Assembly: GCF_003014535.1 (NCBI RefSeq)
Contig: NZ_PYGD01000002.1
Coordinates: 248,001 to 312,000, forward strand
Length of the DNA: 64,000 nt
Direction of reading: 5' to 3'
Source: Taibaiella chishuiensis
GTDB lineage: Bacteria; Bacteroidota; Bacteroidia; Chitinophagales; Chitinophagaceae
The notes below the pieces were generated by a model, which was not told the DNA's origin, did no database searches, and saw only the letters and a list, made by a program, of their open reading frames with translations. Each line of letters starts with the position of its first letter. Position 1 is the first letter of the stretch. Position numbers and translations under genes: made by a program. Of the stretch, positions 35,416 through 41,277 are shown one piece after another.

Positions 35416-35988
35416 TTAGTCTATTTTAATATCGTAATGGGCCAGCAGGCCGGTAACGGCGGGCAGCGAGAACCGGGCCTTTTTGATCCGGTTCTTTTCG
35501 GGGTTGATAGCATAGTTGACGGCTGTTCTGAAATCGGCTTTTTCCAGCACCGAACGATCGAAGGTAGCGCCTGCCAGGTCGCATTGCTCAAATACCGCAT
35601 TGCTGAAATCGCTTTCCGAAAAGTCGGCTTCTTTCAGCTGGCAGTTGCGGAAGCGGGTCTTGGTCAGTTTCAACTGGTAAAACGAAGCATGGTCGAGCAG
35701 GCAGTTGTCGAAGGAGAAGGTCATGCCAAAGGTATTGCAATTGGGAAATTGCAGGCCCAGCATTTTACAGTCCTTGAAATGAGTATCGCGAATGGATGCC
35801 TGGTTAAGTTTCGCCAGGCTGAGGTTGCAGCTGATAAAGGTGCAGCCGGTGAAGAGCTGTTGCTTCAGGTCGGCCTCCTGGAACTGGCAGCCGGTAAAGG
35901 TGCAACGCTCGTATTCGGCTTTGGGCAAGGGTTGCAGGGTGGCGTCCCATTTATCGAAAATCCTGTCTGTAATATATTCCGGCTCCAT
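35416..35988 (-). CDS. Pentapeptide-repeat protein (Qnr/McbG-like)
   Basis: 190 residues from ATG 35988 (MEPEYITDR); the longer frame would run into the LanC gene and has no support. It is built of repeats of the A(D/N)Lxx type (FTGCQFQEADLKQQLFTGCT, FRNCQLKEADFSESDFSNAV), which form a right-handed quadrilateral beta-helix. The C-terminal RFSLPAVTGLLAHYDIKI resembles the tail of Qnr-like proteins. Some relatives protect gyrase from toxins or quinolones. It is 112 nt downstream of the LanC-like gene on the same strand, so a self-protection role is conceivable but unproven. Confidence 0.87.
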   Translation of the reverse strand: MEPEYITDRIFDKWDATLQPLPKAEYERCTFTGCQFQEADLKQQLFTGCTFISCNLSLAKLNQASIRDTHFKDCKMLGLQFPNCNTFGMTFSFDNCLLDHASFYQLKLTKTRFRNCQLKEADFSESDFSNAVFEQCDLAGATFDRSVLEKADFRTAVNYAINPEKNRIKKARFSLPAVTGLLAHYDIKID

Positions 35989-36100
35989 CTTGGTCTTACT
36001 CTTTTTGGGGTTGTGGCCTGCAAAGCTAAAGAATTCATCAACCCTGACCATTAAAAAAAGCAGGCAAAGATGGGATAACCGGAGCGATAGGGAGGTGTCA

Positions 36101-37267
36101 TTATAAAAGAAATGCTTCTGACCAGTTGCGGTGTTCTCCGGACAGGTAGTCGGCAAGTACGATACCTACGCCCGCCCAGCCATCCAGCAGACTTACCGGG
36201 TTATCCTTGTATTGCTCTTCGGTCATGTTCTTGTCGGTCTGTGCAATGGTTTCGCTGATCCAGTATCCATAAGGCTCGAGATAAGCTTCGTTACCCGTTT
36301 CCCGGTACAGGCATTTATAAAACTGTGCCAGACCGGCACTGCCATGACAAAAGTGGCTGTCGGTGCTGAGGGTGTCTTCGGCAGTTCTGCGGCTTAAGGT
36401 ATGCAGGCCAATACGCTCGGCCGTTTCCAGGTATTGCGGCTCGTTCAGCAGGTTGCCCGCTCTTACCAGCAGCAGGGCTATATTGAGGTCGCCATAACAC
36501 CAGGCCAGGCGGTTAGAGATACTGGGTGGCGCATCGGAACCAATGGTAAAAGGAAACAGGGTAAGCTCTTCGCGCGTGGCGCCGGCAGGGAGTTCCAGTT
36601 GCAGGATAAATGCAATGCCGGTCCTGATCAGCTCTTCGGCGCGGGCCTGGTCCTGCAGGCGGGGCCAGGCAGCAATCAACAGCAGCAGCAAACCGCTGAG
36701 CCCGTGTGCCAGGCCCAGGTCGGCCTTATTGTTGAGCCGCTCCAGGCTCTTGTTGACAAAATAAATGCCCCCGGGTGTCACTACCGCTTTGTCCATAAAC
36801 AAGGTGGCTAACCGGTTGAGGTAACGGTCGGTAACGGCTGTTGGCCGGCGTGCCGAAAAGTAATGGAAGGCGCCCATGGCGCCGTGCAGGTAATCGGTTT
36901 CGCCTTGTTCGAGTTGTGCATAGGCGCTATCGAACAGGTATTCGTCGAGGTCGGCAAATTCTTCATCGAGATCGAAATCGATCAGCCCGTTCCGCTGGAG
37001 GTTGCATACCGTATAGGCAAAGCCGGTAGCGCCATTGGCATAGGCCGTACCGTTCAGGCGGGCATTGGTGCCGTTTACTTCTTCAAATACCGTCATCAGC
37101 AGGTTTTCGCCCCGCGCCACCAAATCCGGATCGTCCAGTATAGCCCCGGTATGATAATAGTAATACGCCAGGCCCAAAGCCCCGCTGAGCAAACCATTAT
37201 GGGGTATATCGCTTGTTGCCAGCAGCTCGTTGATCCGCTGTATCTTTTCCCGGGCAAGATCCTTCAT
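36101..37267 (-). CDS. Lanthionine synthetase C-like cyclase (LanC family)
   Basis: A 388-residue alpha-toroid cyclase. The LanC motifs are complete: GLAHGLSG (His188), LAWCYGD (Cys257) and FCHGSAGLA (Cys307-His308). The two Cys and last His are the zinc ligands that activate cysteine thiols for addition to dehydroalanine or dehydrobutyrine, and His188 lies in the active site. The internal G-rich repeats of the seven-fold toroid are visible. It lies in line with a LytTR two-component system and lanthipeptide-type precursors on the same strand. No LanB dehydratase gene is in the window, so substrate dehydration must come from elsewhere if this is a working cyclase. Confidence 0.9.
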   Translation of the reverse strand: MKDLAREKIQRINELLATSDIPHNGLLSGALGLAYYYYHTGAILDDPDLVARGENLLMTVFEEVNGTNARLNGTAYANGATGFAYTVCNLQRNGLIDFDLDEEFADLDEYLFDSAYAQLEQGETDYLHGAMGAFHYFSARRPTAVTDRYLNRLATLFMDKAVVTPGGIYFVNKSLERLNNKADLGLAHGLSGLLLLLIAAWPRLQDQARAEELIRTGIAFILQLELPAGATREELTLFPFTIGSDAPPSISNRLAWCYGDLNIALLLVRAGNLLNEPQYLETAERIGLHTLSRRTAEDTLSTDSHFCHGSAGLAQFYKCLYRETGNEAYLEPYGYWISETIAQTDKNMTEEQYKDNPVSLLDGWAGVGIVLADYLSGEHRNWSEAFLL

Positions 37268-37378
37268 AAGTTGCCTGTTTTTTCTGCAAAATGGACAGAA
37301 TCCCTCCCGGTAAAAAAAAAGATGTACGAGCCTGTGCTTTCCTGTTGCCAGCCGGACTTTGCGGGGTACAAAGCCTGC

Positions 37379-38098
37379 TTAATGGATCATACGCGACCGC
37401 ATCATTTCCAGGAACGCCGGCCGGTATACATTACCCAGGATGATTTCTGCCTTGTTGTTCCGTTTTAAAATGATCGCGTTGCCGTCTACTGCTGCGATAT
37501 TGGCAATCGGTACGATAAAGGATTTATGCACCCGGATAAACTGTTTGGAGGAAAGACTTTCTTCCAGGTCTTTCATATTCATCAGCGACAACAGCTTACG
37601 GTCGCCGCAGATGATGGCTACATAGTTGCGCATGCCTTCGATATAGTCGATCTCGTTGATCTCTACTTTGATAAGCTTGCCTTTGCTGTCGCCTTGTATA
37701 ATGATAAAGTCTTCGTGGGCGCCGGCTTTGGGCGAGGTTTGTGCATCTATGATTTCCTTGGCCTTTTGTGTGGCTTTGAGAAAACGGGTAAAGGGTACCG
37801 GTTTCAACAGGTAATCGATGATGTCGAGGTCGAAACCATCGAGGGCATACTGGCTATAGGCTGTGGTAAAAATAACCTTACACTTCCCGTTGATGGCCTT
37901 TACGAATTCAAGACCGGTAAGGCCCGGCATCTGGATGTCGAGAAAGATGAGGTCGATATCCTTTTCGTTAATCAGGCTCAGGCCTTCCAGCGGATCAGTA
38001 GTGGTCGCTACCAGCTTCAGGTAGGGCACTTTTTCTACATAAGCAGCAATGATATTGATCGCCGGCTGCTCATCGTCTATAATCAGGCATTGGATCAT
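37379..38098 (-). CDS. LytTR family response regulator
   Basis: 239 residues. The receiver domain has acidic residues at IIDDEQPA, phospho-acceptor Asp54 (LIFLDIQMPGL) and Lys near 105 (YLLKPV). The LytTR DNA-binding domain is at about 140-235 (EINEIDYIEGMRNYVAI, FIRVHKSFIV). It overlaps the kinase gene by 4 nt, so the two are translationally coupled. The LanC gene starts 111 nt downstream. Its targets may include the precursor genes; LytTR proteins bind paired direct repeats, which I could not assign with confidence. Confidence 0.93.
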   Translation of the reverse strand: MIQCLIIDDEQPAINIIAAYVEKVPYLKLVATTTDPLEGLSLINEKDIDLIFLDIQMPGLTGLEFVKAINGKCKVIFTTAYSQYALDGFDLDIIDYLLKPVPFTRFLKATQKAKEIIDAQTSPKAGAHEDFIIIQGDSKGKLIKVEINEIDYIEGMRNYVAIICGDRKLLSLMNMKDLEESLSSKQFIRVHKSFIVPIANIAAVDGNAIILKRNNKAEIILGNVYRPAFLEMMRSRMIH

Positions 38099-39141
38099 TT
38101 GTGCAGGGTTTGTTCTGGTTCGAAATAGGGGATAGTCAGCTGTACTTTAAATAAGTTTCCTTCGTTTATCGTTTGCAGTCCTTTGTCGCTGTTGTACAGC
38201 AGCACCAGGCGTTGCCTGATGTTGCTGATGCCCAGGCCCTGGGATACGCCAGCAATTACAGGGTTTTTCTTATTTACGGTCGTAAAGATCAGTTTTTTTT
38301 CTTTTTCATCTATCGTGCAGGTTATTTCGGCTTTGCTGGCCGCGTCTTTCAGGTCGGCATGTTTGAATATATTTTCTACCAGGGTCATCAGCAGCATGGG
38401 CACGATCTTTTTATGTTCCGTATTGCCCTCGATCTTCAGGCTTACGGGTATCTTGTCGGAGAACCGGAACTTGTTTAGCTGAACCACATTCTGGATATGT
38501 TCGATTTCATCTTCTAGGTTGGCCAGGCCGCGCGTGGCTGAGAAGTCGGTGAGCGAGTAGCGCATCATTTGCGATAGCAGCATAATCGCTTCGGCCACAT
38601 CGGGGCGTTGCTGGAAGGTTTCGGAATAAAAAAAGTTAAGACAGTTGTACAGGAAGTGCGGGTTGATCTGTGCACGCAGGAAGTTGTTTTCCGATTGCAG
38701 CAACTCTTTCTGCAGGATCAGTTTTTGCTGTTCCAGCTCCTTTACCTTCTCCTGTTTCATAAAGAACTTAACCACGAAGAAATAACCTATGGCCGGGATA
38801 AAAAACTGCGTGGTAACCTGGGTTACGGTAAAAATGATCTGCTGCTGGGTAAATACAACAGGCTCGTACAGCTTATTGTAAACAAAAACATACAGCAGCG
38901 TAAAGGAGTAGCTGCCGCTAACGCAGATCAGCAGCAGGGGTATACTGTACAGCTTCTTGCGTTTGGGCGCCAGGAACAGGAAGTACAGGAAGGCGTAAGC
39001 CGTATAAAATACCCAGAACTGTTGGAACAGGATAATGAACTCGATAGGAAGATGAAAGCTCGGCGCGAAAAAAAAATCCATGGACATTGCCCAGACGGAG
39101 TAGCATAACAAGACAAGAAGATGCCATTTCGTTTTTTTCAT
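38095..39141 (-). CDS. LytS-type sensor histidine kinase
   Basis: A 348-residue membrane kinase. Four hydrophobic segments lie in the first 128 residues, followed by a coiled coil (VKELEQQKLILQKELLQS). The His_kinase domain has the phospho-accepting His162 in FLRAQINPHFLYNCLNF, and the ATPase domain has MTLVENIFKH and GLGISNIRQRL. No extracellular sensor domain is present, so the membrane segments probably do the sensing. This is common for kinases that detect peptides or membrane-active agents. Its partner regulator gene overlaps the 3' end. Confidence 0.92.
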   Translation of the reverse strand: MKKTKWHLLVLLCYSVWAMSMDFFFAPSFHLPIEFIILFQQFWVFYTAYAFLYFLFLAPKRKKLYSIPLLLICVSGSYSFTLLYVFVYNKLYEPVVFTQQQIIFTVTQVTTQFFIPAIGYFFVVKFFMKQEKVKELEQQKLILQKELLQSENNFLRAQINPHFLYNCLNFFYSETFQQRPDVAEAIMLLSQMMRYSLTDFSATRGLANLEDEIEHIQNVVQLNKFRFSDKIPVSLKIEGNTEHKKIVPMLLMTLVENIFKHADLKDAASKAEITCTIDEKEKKLIFTTVNKKNPVIAGVSQGLGISNIRQRLVLLYNSDKGLQTINEGNLFKVQLTIPYFEPEQTLHK

Positions 39142-39171
39142 AATCGGTTGGGGCGCTTGCCCCTGGTCATA

Positions 39172-39207
39172 TTAAAACGCAAAGTACCGGCAAGCCGATA
39201 CTTTGCG
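39172..39207 (-). terminator. Terminator between the distal precursor and the kinase gene
   Basis: CGCAAAGTA (39178-39186) and TACTTTGCG (39199-39207), with inner CGGC/GCCG arms, form a long hairpin. On the minus strand TTTTAAT follows. Confidence 0.72.
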
Positions 39208-39273
39208 TAATTGGTGTTAAACAATATCAGGTTACGTTCCCGGTAATGCTGCTGCATAGGCTACCGGCAGGTA

Positions 39274-39528
39274 TTAGGGGTATTGGATCAATTGTTTATC
39301 TTGTTTATCGCTGTCGGTATCGGGCTTCTGCGGCTTGTAAGGACAGTTGGTGCCCAGGTATCCGCTATAAATGGATAAGCCGCTTGTAGTGGTCTGGCCT
39401 CCGGTATTTTTGCCTTCAAGCGGACCACCGCCATTGATCTGGGCAGCTTCTGCTGCACTAAGGTCTGCAATTACCATTTTTTTCAGACCGAGCCTGGAGG
39501 TCATAGATTTACGGATCGTACGCTTCAT
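39274..39528 (-). CDS. Lanthipeptide-type precursor, divergent core
   Basis: An 84-residue precursor. The leader MKRTIRKSMTSRLGLKKMVI is followed by ADLSAAEAAQINGGG, which matches the Bacteroidota double-glycine leader (LxLKK...I..LS..E...I.GG). The core is unlike its neighbours: a single Cys (GTNCPYKP), many Thr/Ser (GGQTTTSGLSIYSG) and a charged tail (PDTDSDKQDKQ). With one Cys it could form at most one thioether ring. It lies immediately upstream of the kinase gene, behind its own terminator, so it may act as a signal peptide rather than an effector. Confidence 0.75.
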   Translation of the reverse strand: MKRTIRKSMTSRLGLKKMVIADLSAAEAAQINGGGPLEGKNTGGQTTTSGLSIYSGYLGTNCPYKPQKPDTDSDKQDKQLIQYP

Positions 39529-39821
39529 ATTTTACTTCTGTTTAAAATGATGAGTGATGTGGCAAATTAACGCAATTTAATGATATATATAATTTAATAC
39601 GCGAAATATCACTAACTGGTGACAAACGACAGGATTTCGGGTACAATCGGCCTTTTTCGCGGTCAAAATCGGCCTGTTTTTGTGTTAAAGTGTTCAAAAA
39701 TAATCGCTTAGATAGCCGTATTTCCTCCGGCCCGGCAGCGGGGTAAACGCTTGTAAAAAAAGTAAAATGCTGGTTTTCAATCTTATTGAAAAAAAGACAC
39801 TGCAGCGTGGCAATAATCTCT
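39529..39821. other. Intergenic region of the precursor cluster
   Basis: AT-rich. A 99-residue minus-strand frame here has no coding features. It should contain the promoter of the distal precursor gene. Confidence 0.4.
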
Positions 39822-39857
39822 AAAAAACCACTGCAAGCCATGGGGCTTGCAGTGGTT
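39822..39857 (-). terminator. Strong terminator ending the four-precursor run
   Basis: AACCACTGCAAGCC (39826-39839) and GGCTTGCAGTGGTT (39844-39857) form a perfect 14-bp stem with a 4-nt loop. On the minus strand a T-run follows, 24 nt after the precursor stop at 39881. Confidence 0.92.
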
Positions 39858-39880
39858 CCGTTAACTACGGCATCGTATGA

Positions 39881-40105
39881 TTAAATGAATTTAGTGGTCA
39901 GGTCGATCACGTCGATGATGAAATCGCCGGGAGGTTTAGGGCCTGTTTCGCGGTTGCAGCACAGGAAACCGGAACAGTTACCATAAGAGGTAGTGAATTG
40001 TGGTTTACCACCGGCTACTGCGGTCATTTCATTTTTAGACAGGTTGGCGATGGCTTGTTTTTTCAGTTGCAGTTTAGAACTGCCGGCCAGGTTTGTTTTT
40101 TTCAT
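39881..40105 (-). CDS. Class I lanthipeptide-type precursor (T-S-x-G-x-C family)
   Basis: 74 residues. The leader runs to Gly-Gly at 32-33 (KLQLKKQAIANLSKNEMTAV then AGG), a match to Bacteroidota lanthipeptide leaders. The core begins KPQFTTSYGNCSGFLCC, giving three Cys behind three Ser/Thr. That is enough for thioether rings or alternatively a disulfide. The tail DFIIDVIDLTTKFI is hydrophobic. It is the last of four similar genes on the strand before a strong terminator. Confidence 0.85.
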   Translation of the reverse strand: MKKTNLAGSSKLQLKKQAIANLSKNEMTAVAGGKPQFTTSYGNCSGFLCCNRETGPKPPGDFIIDVIDLTTKFI

Positions 40106-40176
40106 GATCGTTTGTTTTTTGTATAAGGAAGAAAATACGTATTGAAATAATGCGGACCTCCGCGTAATGGTGCTGG

Positions 40177-40425
40177 TTATACGAGAGGTTGCATACCCAG
40201 GCCGTTGTCGTTATTATCCGTCGTACACTTTAAAGTCGGGAAAAAATCGTCGATCAGTACGGTTGACTTCGTAGGTGAGCAGCAAAGGAAACCGCTGCAA
40301 TTACCGAAGGATGTGGTCCAGGCAGGTTTACCACCTTGTACGTTTTCTGATTCTGATTTGCTCAGGTTAGCGATGGCTTGTTTCCTGAATTGCAGTTTGC
40401 TGTTGTTTTGATTTATTTTTTTCAT
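40177..40425 (-). CDS. Class I lanthipeptide-type precursor (T-S-x-G-x-C family)
   Basis: 82 residues. The leader ends at Gly-Gly 31-32 (LQFRKQAIANLSKSESENVQ then GG). The core KPAWTTSFGNCSGFLCCS has three Cys, and a fourth lies in the tail (TLKCTTD). It is nearly identical to the preceding precursor through the TTSFG.CSGFLCC segment and diverges after it. Constant leader and ring region with a variable tail is typical of multi-precursor sets. It is spaced 71 nt from the next gene. Confidence 0.86.
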   Translation of the reverse strand: MKKINQNNSKLQFRKQAIANLSKSESENVQGGKPAWTTSFGNCSGFLCCSPTKSTVLIDDFFPTLKCTTDNNDNGLGMQPLV

Positions 40426-40474
40426 GCTGTAAATTTTAGAGGTGCTGTAAACAAGAAAATAGAGGTGCTGTAAA
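40425..40474. repeat. Direct repeats in a precursor leader region
   Basis: GAGGTGCTGTAAA occurs at 40439-40451 and 40462-40474, and its TGCTGTAAA part also at 40425-40433, immediately before the precursor start codon. They may be slippage repeats or regulator sites. Confidence 0.4.
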
Positions 40475-40667
40475 TAAGAAACCGGTTACCTGGTGTGTGT
40501 GCCCTGTAATGCAGTAGCGTCGCAGGACACACACGTATAATTTTTTCAGGTTGTAATGGGCAACGCTTCGCCGGGCCCGCTACCATAAGGGTACAGGAGT
40601 ACAGCAGGTATGCTGTATCACTTCGATACTGTTACAGGGAGAAGCCGGTTGGCGTATGTGCCGGGTA

Positions 40668-40901
40668 TTACTGAGGCGTATTGTTACCGCCGCAATCGTT
40701 GGTGATGTTGTCGATGATGTCTTTGATCAGTTCTTTACTCTTAGAAGGAGAGCAACATAAGAAGCCGCTGCATTTTCCGAAAGAGGTAGTCCAGGCCGCT
40801 TCCCCGCCTTGTACATGGCTCATTTCAGAACGGTTCAGGTTAACGATCGCTTCTTTCCTGAATTGCAGTTTGCTGTTTGCAGTTTGATTTACTTTTTTCA
40901 T
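40668..40901 (-). CDS. Class I lanthipeptide-type precursor (T-S-x-G-x-C family)
   Basis: 77 residues from ATG 40901 (MKKVNQ), chosen to align with the MKK start of its paralogues. The leader ends at Gly-Gly 32-33 (KLQFRKEAIVNLNRSEMSHV then QGG). The core EAAWTTSFGKCSGFLCCS has three Cys, with one more in the acidic tail (ITNDCGGNN). It is separated by about 240 nt from the next precursor, so each gene may have its own promoter. Confidence 0.86.
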   Translation of the reverse strand: MKKVNQTANSKLQFRKEAIVNLNRSEMSHVQGGEAAWTTSFGKCSGFLCCSPSKSKELIKDIIDNITNDCGGNNTPQ

Positions 40902-41055
40902 GTTATGCAATTTTTGAAATTAGTATTTGTTCCTACTCTGTTATAAAGGTTTTCGGATTCCCCTTTTTTTGAAGGCATGCGGAAGCCTGCAGTATTCCGT
41001 GCCGGTACTGGTATACTCATGTTTACTAAATCTAATGGAGGGGCTGTATTGCTGA

Positions 41056-41277
41056 TCAGGCAAAGGTTGCCGCCTGGAGCACCGGCGGATTTTCCTCCGG
41101 TGCTGTTGTGCCATCCAGGTCGCAGCAGAATACCCCTGTGCAGCGGCCTATAGAAGTGCTCCATGCCCGGGGTTCTGCATTTCCTCCTTTTATATAATCC
41201 AGGCTGCTTACCGATAAAGTAGCGATGGCCTGTTTATGTAAATGAAGTTTTCCTTTTTTATAAGTAGTCGATTTCAT
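41056..41277 (-). CDS. Class I lanthipeptide-type precursor (T-S-x-G-x-C family, divergent)
   Basis: 73 residues. The leader KLHLHKQAIATLSVSSLDYI is followed by KGG (Gly-Gly 31-32). The core NAEPRAWSTSIGRCTGVFCC keeps the W-S/T-T-S-x-G-x-C-[ST]-G-x-x-C-C plan but changes most variable positions. The tail is acidic and proline-rich (TTAPEENPP) and has no further Cys. It is the most upstream precursor on the strand. Confidence 0.85.
   Translation of the reverse strand: MKSTTYKKGKLHLHKQAIATLSVSSLDYIKGGNAEPRAWSTSIGRCTGVFCCDLDGTTAPEENPPVLQAATFA

Follow-up and report, generated by a model that had tools for sequence, protein, structure and literature searches.

The 64-kb window analysed here (C2:248001-312000) comes from the 5.84-Mb, 24-contig genome of Taibaiella chishuiensis, genus Taibaiella, and contains a lanthipeptide-type locus in which several precursor genes accompany a LanC-like cyclase. 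Eight genes, all on the minus strand, lie in line: five precursors (P1-P5), a LytS-type sensor histidine kinase, a LytTR response regulator and the LanC. Specifically, P1 (41056..41277, 73 amino acids (aa)) has a double-glycine (GG) leader and a core with STSIGRCTGVFCC; P2 (40668..40901, 77 aa), P3 (40177..40425, 82 aa) and P4 (39881..40105, 74 aa) carry the cores TTSFGKCSGFLCC, TTSFGNCSGFLCC and TTSYGNCSGFLCC, respectively; and P5 (39274..39528, 84 aa) combines a GG leader with a core containing one Cys. The kinase (38095..39141, 348 aa) matches PF06580 (E 4.5e-20), the regulator (37379..38098, 239 aa) has Response_reg and LytTR domains and its gene start overlaps the end of the kinase gene, and the cyclase (36101..37267, 388 aa) matches PF05147 (E 3.5e-40). 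The gene set read here by the initial annotation, five precursors with double-glycine leaders, a LytS/LytTR pair and a LanC, is borne out, coordinates included. A pentapeptide-repeat protein gene (window 35416-36156) lies directly downstream of the LanC gene and overlaps it.

NF038153, the model of the class I lanthipeptide leader L1a, scores above its cut-off of 22 bits only in P2 (41 bits), P3 (32 bits) and P4 (32.2 bits), and falls below it in P1 (19.3 bits) and P5 (14.7 bits). P1-P4 share the core motif [ST]-T-S-x-x-x-C-[ST]-G-x-x-C-C, which is absent from P5, a divergent relative of the other four. The locus therefore has the class I leader (P2-P4) and the Ser/Thr/Cys core (P1-P4) expected of a class I lanthipeptide cluster. 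For P2, the ATG at 40901 is a better start than the TTG at 40910. A leader model built from the genome's own leaders picks exactly P1-P5 from 407 small open reading frames (ORFs) of the window and none of 514 from the reversed sequence, a test that is partly circular because P1-P5 were included in the model; the leader model used for the congener and later searches likewise contains the window's own leaders. The LxLxKx5L leader motif is present in its strict form in 54 of 70 precursors extracted from the genome and in a relaxed form in all 70.

When the LanC is aligned with three relatives, no variation is seen at residues Asp125, His188, Arg253, Cys257, Tyr258, Cys307 and His308. We take them to be the zinc ligands and catalytic residues of NisC, which agrees with alignments to LANCL proteins. 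The PF05147 match, the invariant residues and the alignment to LANCL and NisC-family chains thus identify the zinc-liganded cyclase of a class I cluster, as first noted.

The dehydratase of such a cluster is missing from the locus. No LanB is encoded in the window or in the 20 kb around the corresponding loci of T. helva and T. koreensis. In line with the earlier claim that the window holds neither a LanB nor a C39 exporter, whole-genome Pfam searches place no LanB or C39 gene on contig C2, and none of 27 LanB or 13 exporter sequences gives a tblastn match in the window at E <= 1e-3. An exporter or leader protease is likewise missing from the window; many class I clusters also do without one, so this feature is not strictly defining. 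The locus therefore has the makings of a part of a class I lanthipeptide pathway rather than of a complete class I cluster.

Both missing functions are encoded elsewhere in the genome. LanB occurs at three sites: LanB1 at C1:1004541-1007648, LanB2 at C1:1017134-1020292 and a divergent LanB3 on contig C7. LanB1, which matches NisB (E 7.5e-31), lies in a hub on C1 with two LanCs, a C39-ABC exporter and an HlyD protein as its neighbours, and LanB2 is paired with a LanC approximately 9.5 kb from this hub. A second, weak C39 match is found at C1:520792 (E 2.7e-6, 526-aa frame). The frames that contain the genome's six LANC_like matches measure 403-464 aa; these are too short for a fused class II-IV synthetase, a candidate that was rejected on this ground, and because no such synthetase is apparent from the frame lengths, LanB is the dehydratase at hand. 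Next to LanB2 and its neighbouring LanC (LanC3), two MvdD-type ATP-grasp proteins (PF21068) at C1:1014515-1016605 mark a possible mixed graspetide/lanthipeptide site. LanB3-type proteins (922-939 aa; C7:237079-239898 and contig C20 of T. koreensis) adjoin a two-component pair, with no LanC within the 19-20 kb examined.

The initial annotation had named a complete operon elsewhere that clearly owns these leaders as the finding that would overturn it. A complete operon does exist on C1 and has similar leaders beside it, but ownership does not follow: because the window precursors sit with their own LanC, we take the C1 operon to serve them rather than to replace their locus. Of the two readings originally offered, dehydration and export in trans is favoured over a reduced or different pathway by the presence of LanB, LanC and C39-ABC elsewhere in the genome and by the recurrence of the LanB-less layout in two congeners.

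These congeners are T. helva and T. koreensis, the two same-genus genomes in which a P1-P4 model finds strong matches among 294 family genomes. A search for the same gene order, proposed at the outset as a check, recovers LanB-less loci of LanC, precursors and regulator in both. Each locus has two precursors, a LanC 50-51% identical and a regulator 67-68% identical to those of the window, with no kinase beside the regulator and no LanB in the 20 kb examined (approximately 10 kb each way). Between the two species, the LanC has dN 0.13 and dS 1.0 (nonsynonymous and synonymous substitutions per site) and the precursors dN 0.12-0.14 and dS 0.8-1.6, rough values given the NG86 method and a dS near or above 1. 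Although the pair formed by the window locus and its T. koreensis counterpart passed our synteny filter, it probably did so through LanC and regulator themselves, and positional orthology is therefore not claimed.

Both congeners also have an orthologous hub, whose LanB, C39-ABC and HlyD are 56-57%, 84% and 68% identical, respectively, to those of T. chishuiensis. T. koreensis has one canonical LanB, that of the hub, and one divergent LanB3-type protein; its LanB matches include no LanB2 ortholog, and those of T. helva include no LanB3 type. Away from its hub, T. koreensis has four LanC genes, each with a precursor within approximately 1.2 kb and with no LanB in the 19-20 kb examined. A fourth Taibaiella genome, G174, gives no LanB, LanC or leader match and has a C39-ABC 40% identical to that of the hub. 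Hence three of the four sampled Taibaiella genomes keep precursors, LanC and regulator; the same three have leaders and the LanB/C39 hub, and the one without leaders is also without LanB. The second LanB of T. helva (C33:61813-64914), next to a LanC, reads as two frames of 726 and 302 aa; either the gene is broken or the LanB is split in the way reported for pinensin.

Leaders of this family are abundant across the genome. NF038153 gives 79 matches at E <= 1, of which 63 lie above the cut-off. Grouped at 10 kb, these occupy 37 places on 16 contigs; for 52 of the 63, no LanB, LanC or hub C39 gene was found within 10 kb. Precursors could be extracted for 70 of the 79 matches, the remaining nine all being below the cut-off. 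Of the 63 above the cut-off, 62 have a GG or GA site; the median Cys count of their cores is five, and Cys and Ser/Thr make up 12.6% and 19% of the core residues, respectively. Dozens of such precursor sites are dispersed over the genome, the window locus among them, and the genome shows the prochlorosin-like combination of many scattered precursors (63 leaders at 37 places) with few synthetases (three LanB and six LanC). Of 195 family genomes sampled, 11 have any leader match, with at least 38 each in T. chishuiensis, T. helva and T. koreensis and 1-7 in the other eight, and 9 of 395 genomes in a phylum sample have any match of the leader family. At least 64 precursors from T. helva and at least 49 from T. 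koreensis were extracted, within the regions of the matches listed.

Two arrays of precursors were also observed. At C3:258924-263479, at least nine precursors with different cores lie on both strands within approximately 5 kb. Placed among them is a small protein of 146 aa that looks exported and is similar in appearance to proteins at L046:3692 and L060:6065. In genome G492, from another Bacteroidota family and the one further member of the phylum sample with so many, at least 19 class I leader matches form one tandem array of approximately 3.3 kb (C1:2257066-2260358 of that genome).

The dispersed precursors carry a signature of constraint that bears on their modification. Comparison of T. 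koreensis with T. helva yields 32 reciprocal best hits, of which 26 are syntenic (at least two shared flanking ORFs, a filter that favours conserved pairs); 24 of the 26 are orphans, with no LanB, LanC or C39 in the examined flanks. Cores (dN 0.124, dS 1.57) and leaders (dN 0.123, dS 0.95) were contrasted within the same pairs. Of the 155 core columns with Cys, 151 are identical; of the 219 with Ser/Thr, 203 hold Ser or Thr in both species (189 identical). Core columns that have none of these three residues are identical in 526 cases out of 699, and the class that comes next after Cys and Ser/Thr is Pro (84 of 106). In the leaders the order is reversed, with Ser/Thr identical in 72 of 124 columns and other residues in 571 of 696. 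Joint constraint on core Ser/Thr and Cys is the pattern that thioether (lanthionine) formation would be expected to leave, and one that disulfides alone do not predict.

The history of the locus is consistent with a dehydratase that was lost rather than moved. A scan of named genomes with a single LanC query gave no match; a LanC alignment as query gave 37 loci, of which ten and then seven more (Chryseobacterium L157-L163) were annotated, the others serving in trees only or not being used. A 42-member LanC tree places the window LanC with those of T. helva, T. koreensis, L134, L135 and L137 (support 100/99), and then with L173 (99/97). In L135, L137 and L173, LanB, C39-ABC, precursor, kinase, regulator and LanC stand together; the LanB ORF of L137 has 690 aa, and L134, a 4-kb contig, cannot tell whether a LanB lies in cis. 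In a tree of 27 LanBs, those of L135 and L137 pair (93/84) and join L173 and others (86/91), and the seven Taibaiella LanB rows fall elsewhere. Relocation of the cognate LanB within the genome was accordingly rejected. As the same LanC lineage stands beside a LanB in three related genomes and these LanBs group apart, the cognate LanB was probably lost in Taibaiella.

Several non-coding features of the locus, all on the minus strand, may relate to its expression. Upstream of P2, an element at 40930..40970 consists of an inverted AAAGG-N12-CCTTT followed by AGAGTAGGAA and is a candidate operator or leader element. It is common to the first precursor of T. helva and T. koreensis and occurs nowhere else in 175 loci, the scan having covered these loci rather than the whole genome; an RNA structure is not supported, as the element has no stable fold (z +0.82). 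A terminator-like hairpin with a T-run follows P4 (39824..39859, z -6.0), and another with a T-rich tail lies between P5 and the kinase gene (39177..39208, z -5.5); the latter is also among the pattern-scan matches, the former is not. These two hairpins suggest separate transcripts, and because the pattern scans are at chance overall (5 promoter-like sigma-70 matches against 8.6 expected, 7 terminator-like against 7.6), they alone suggest the transcription units. Peptide-controlled expression through the two-component genes, as initially put forward, is plausible.

Taken together, these findings lead us to propose, with little more than even confidence, that the window locus is a satellite with its own LanC, belonging to a class I lanthipeptide system distributed over the genome, in which dehydration, most likely by the hub LanB, and export are supplied in trans. 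The LytS/LytTR pair would control the peptides, and P1-P4, perhaps also P5, would be produced bearing LxLxKx5L double-glycine leaders. Ser/Thr would be dehydrated in trans by a LanB from another locus, most likely that of the hub at C1:1004541-1007648, after which the locus's own LanC would close thioether rings with the three core cysteines; the C39-ABC/HlyD exporter of the hub would then cut at the GG site and export the product. A wider form of the proposal, in which one promiscuous LanB and the C39/HlyD hub serve several LanC/precursor satellites and approximately 50 orphan precursors, so that cyclases rather than dehydratases travel with the peptides, is more tentative, and we would place it somewhat below an even chance.

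Which LanB acts was approached through the leaders. A leader model from three other genera was built on seven leaders: three have a LanB1-clade LanB as neighbour, one adjoins a related LanC and three come from genome G140. Among the 70 leaders of T. chishuiensis, it ranks a leader pair on C4 first and second, the hub-adjacent leaders 3, 7 and 12, and the LanB2-adjacent leaders 33 and 51; P3, P4, P2, P1 and P5 rank 4, 5, 6, 10 and 25. A model from related in-cis leaders ranks P4, P3 and P1 at 1, 4 and 7, P2 at 16 and P5 at 32. These ranks, and the presence of the locus in T. koreensis without LanB2, favour LanB1, though not decisively. That the same trans mechanism uses LanB2 or LanB3 instead is unlikely in our estimate, even though both are full-length proteins with Pfam N and C domains, LanB2 shares the C1 neighbourhood, and LanB2 is the best-scoring match (approximately 33-34%) of the LanBs that accompany related LanCs in cis. 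In the tree those LanBs do not group with LanB2, the LanB2-adjacent leaders rank low, T. koreensis has a window-type locus and no LanB2 ortholog, and T. helva gives no LanB3-type match. It is equally improbable that no dehydration takes place, the cores being exported with disulfides or the LanC having another role, such as binding or regulation, outside a lanthipeptide pathway. The lack of a dehydratase in cis and the Cys-rich cores (12.6% Cys over the 62 cores) would suit this explanation, but the LanC keeps its full active site and a low dN/dS, its lineage stands beside LanB in three related genomes, and core Ser/Thr is kept nearly as well as Cys while leader Ser/Thr is not. Least probable, and in our view rather remote, is a decaying remnant of a former LanB-LanA-HK-RR-LanC (HK, kinase; RR, regulator) cluster. 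It would account for the LanB and exporter genes that related clusters have and the window locus lacks, and for the kinase missing beside the regulator in T. helva and T. koreensis; yet all genes are intact, LanC and precursors show purifying selection, three of four sampled genus genomes keep precursors, LanC and regulator, and the precursors have multiplied to four motif-bearing copies in T. chishuiensis.

Several observations weigh against a satellite served by the hub. The hub LanB is not the sole LanB, and LanB2 on C1 and LanB3 on C7 are alternatives. In the leader test of the other-genera model, the p-value for the higher ranking of the window five against 60 other leaders (one-sided p 0.0006) is only nominal because the leaders are paralogous, P5 reaches only rank 25, and the three model leaders from G140 come from a genome whose LanB matches go no further than a LanB1-like fragment. 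The Ser/Thr test rests on other precursors, with the window type represented by one pair only. Additionally, the window locus differs in its surroundings from the loci of T. helva and T. koreensis, and the three LanCs form no exclusive group; on these two grounds, LanB may have been lost more than once.

Among described systems, the closest include the class I clusters of Bacteroidota whose precursors carry LxLxKx5L double-glycine leaders, as surveyed by Walker et al. (2020, PMC7268733). They have the same leader motif and GG site, a LanC and, as in this genome, a C39 exporter; in Taibaiella, LanB and C39-ABC do not stand with the precursors. Because that survey calls class I where a LanB lies within seven genes of a LanC, its rule does not assign the window locus to class I. 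The survey describes pinensin from Chitinophaga, a class I lanthipeptide of the same phylum, as having a split LanB. It also puts scattered class II precursors in print: the prochlorosins (PMC7268733, PMC12328550), like the Taibaiella precursors, are numerous, share a leader type, differ in their cores and in many cases lie far from the modifying enzyme. Prochlorosins depend on one bifunctional LanM, whereas Taibaiella has separate LanB and LanC families, several LanCs standing with precursors and a hub with a GG-protease exporter. Unpaired LanB and LanC genes are reported in Spirosoma linguale and Microscilla marina (Marsh et al. 2010, PMC3091789), genomes which, like Taibaiella, have more LanB and LanC genes than clusters with both; the passages of that paper on these genes describe no dispersed precursor repertoires, LanC-plus-precursor satellites or LanB-exporter hub.

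Among 249 precursors, the best non-Taibaiella match to the window core model (E 0.001) is the L157 core TSxxxCTGWTC, from the Chryseobacterium loci L157-L163 of LanA-LanC-LanB layout. These loci differ from the window in having LanB in cis in 7 of 7 cases, their LanC is approximately 25% identical, and the motif pattern occurs in 2 of the 7. Homology of the window core with that of L173, attractive by eye, is not significant (E 1.6) and was not used. In the open-access library searched, we found no account of class I precursors scattered over a genome together with LanC satellites and a hub of LanB and exporter; searches for Taibaiella lanthipeptides and for orphan lanthipeptide precursors likewise returned no paper.

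If this proposal is correct, class I biosynthesis could be split over a genome into a shared dehydration and export hub and precursor sites that are either cyclase-bearing or bare, and cores and rings could diversify without rebuilding whole clusters. Surveys in which LanB, or the precursors, must lie close to LanC would then miss most such peptides (52 of 63 leaders here). With its dozens of candidate clients, a LanB of such natural promiscuity would be of use in peptide engineering, and the system would make it possible to test directly what LanB and LanC each contribute to leader recognition and ring pattern.

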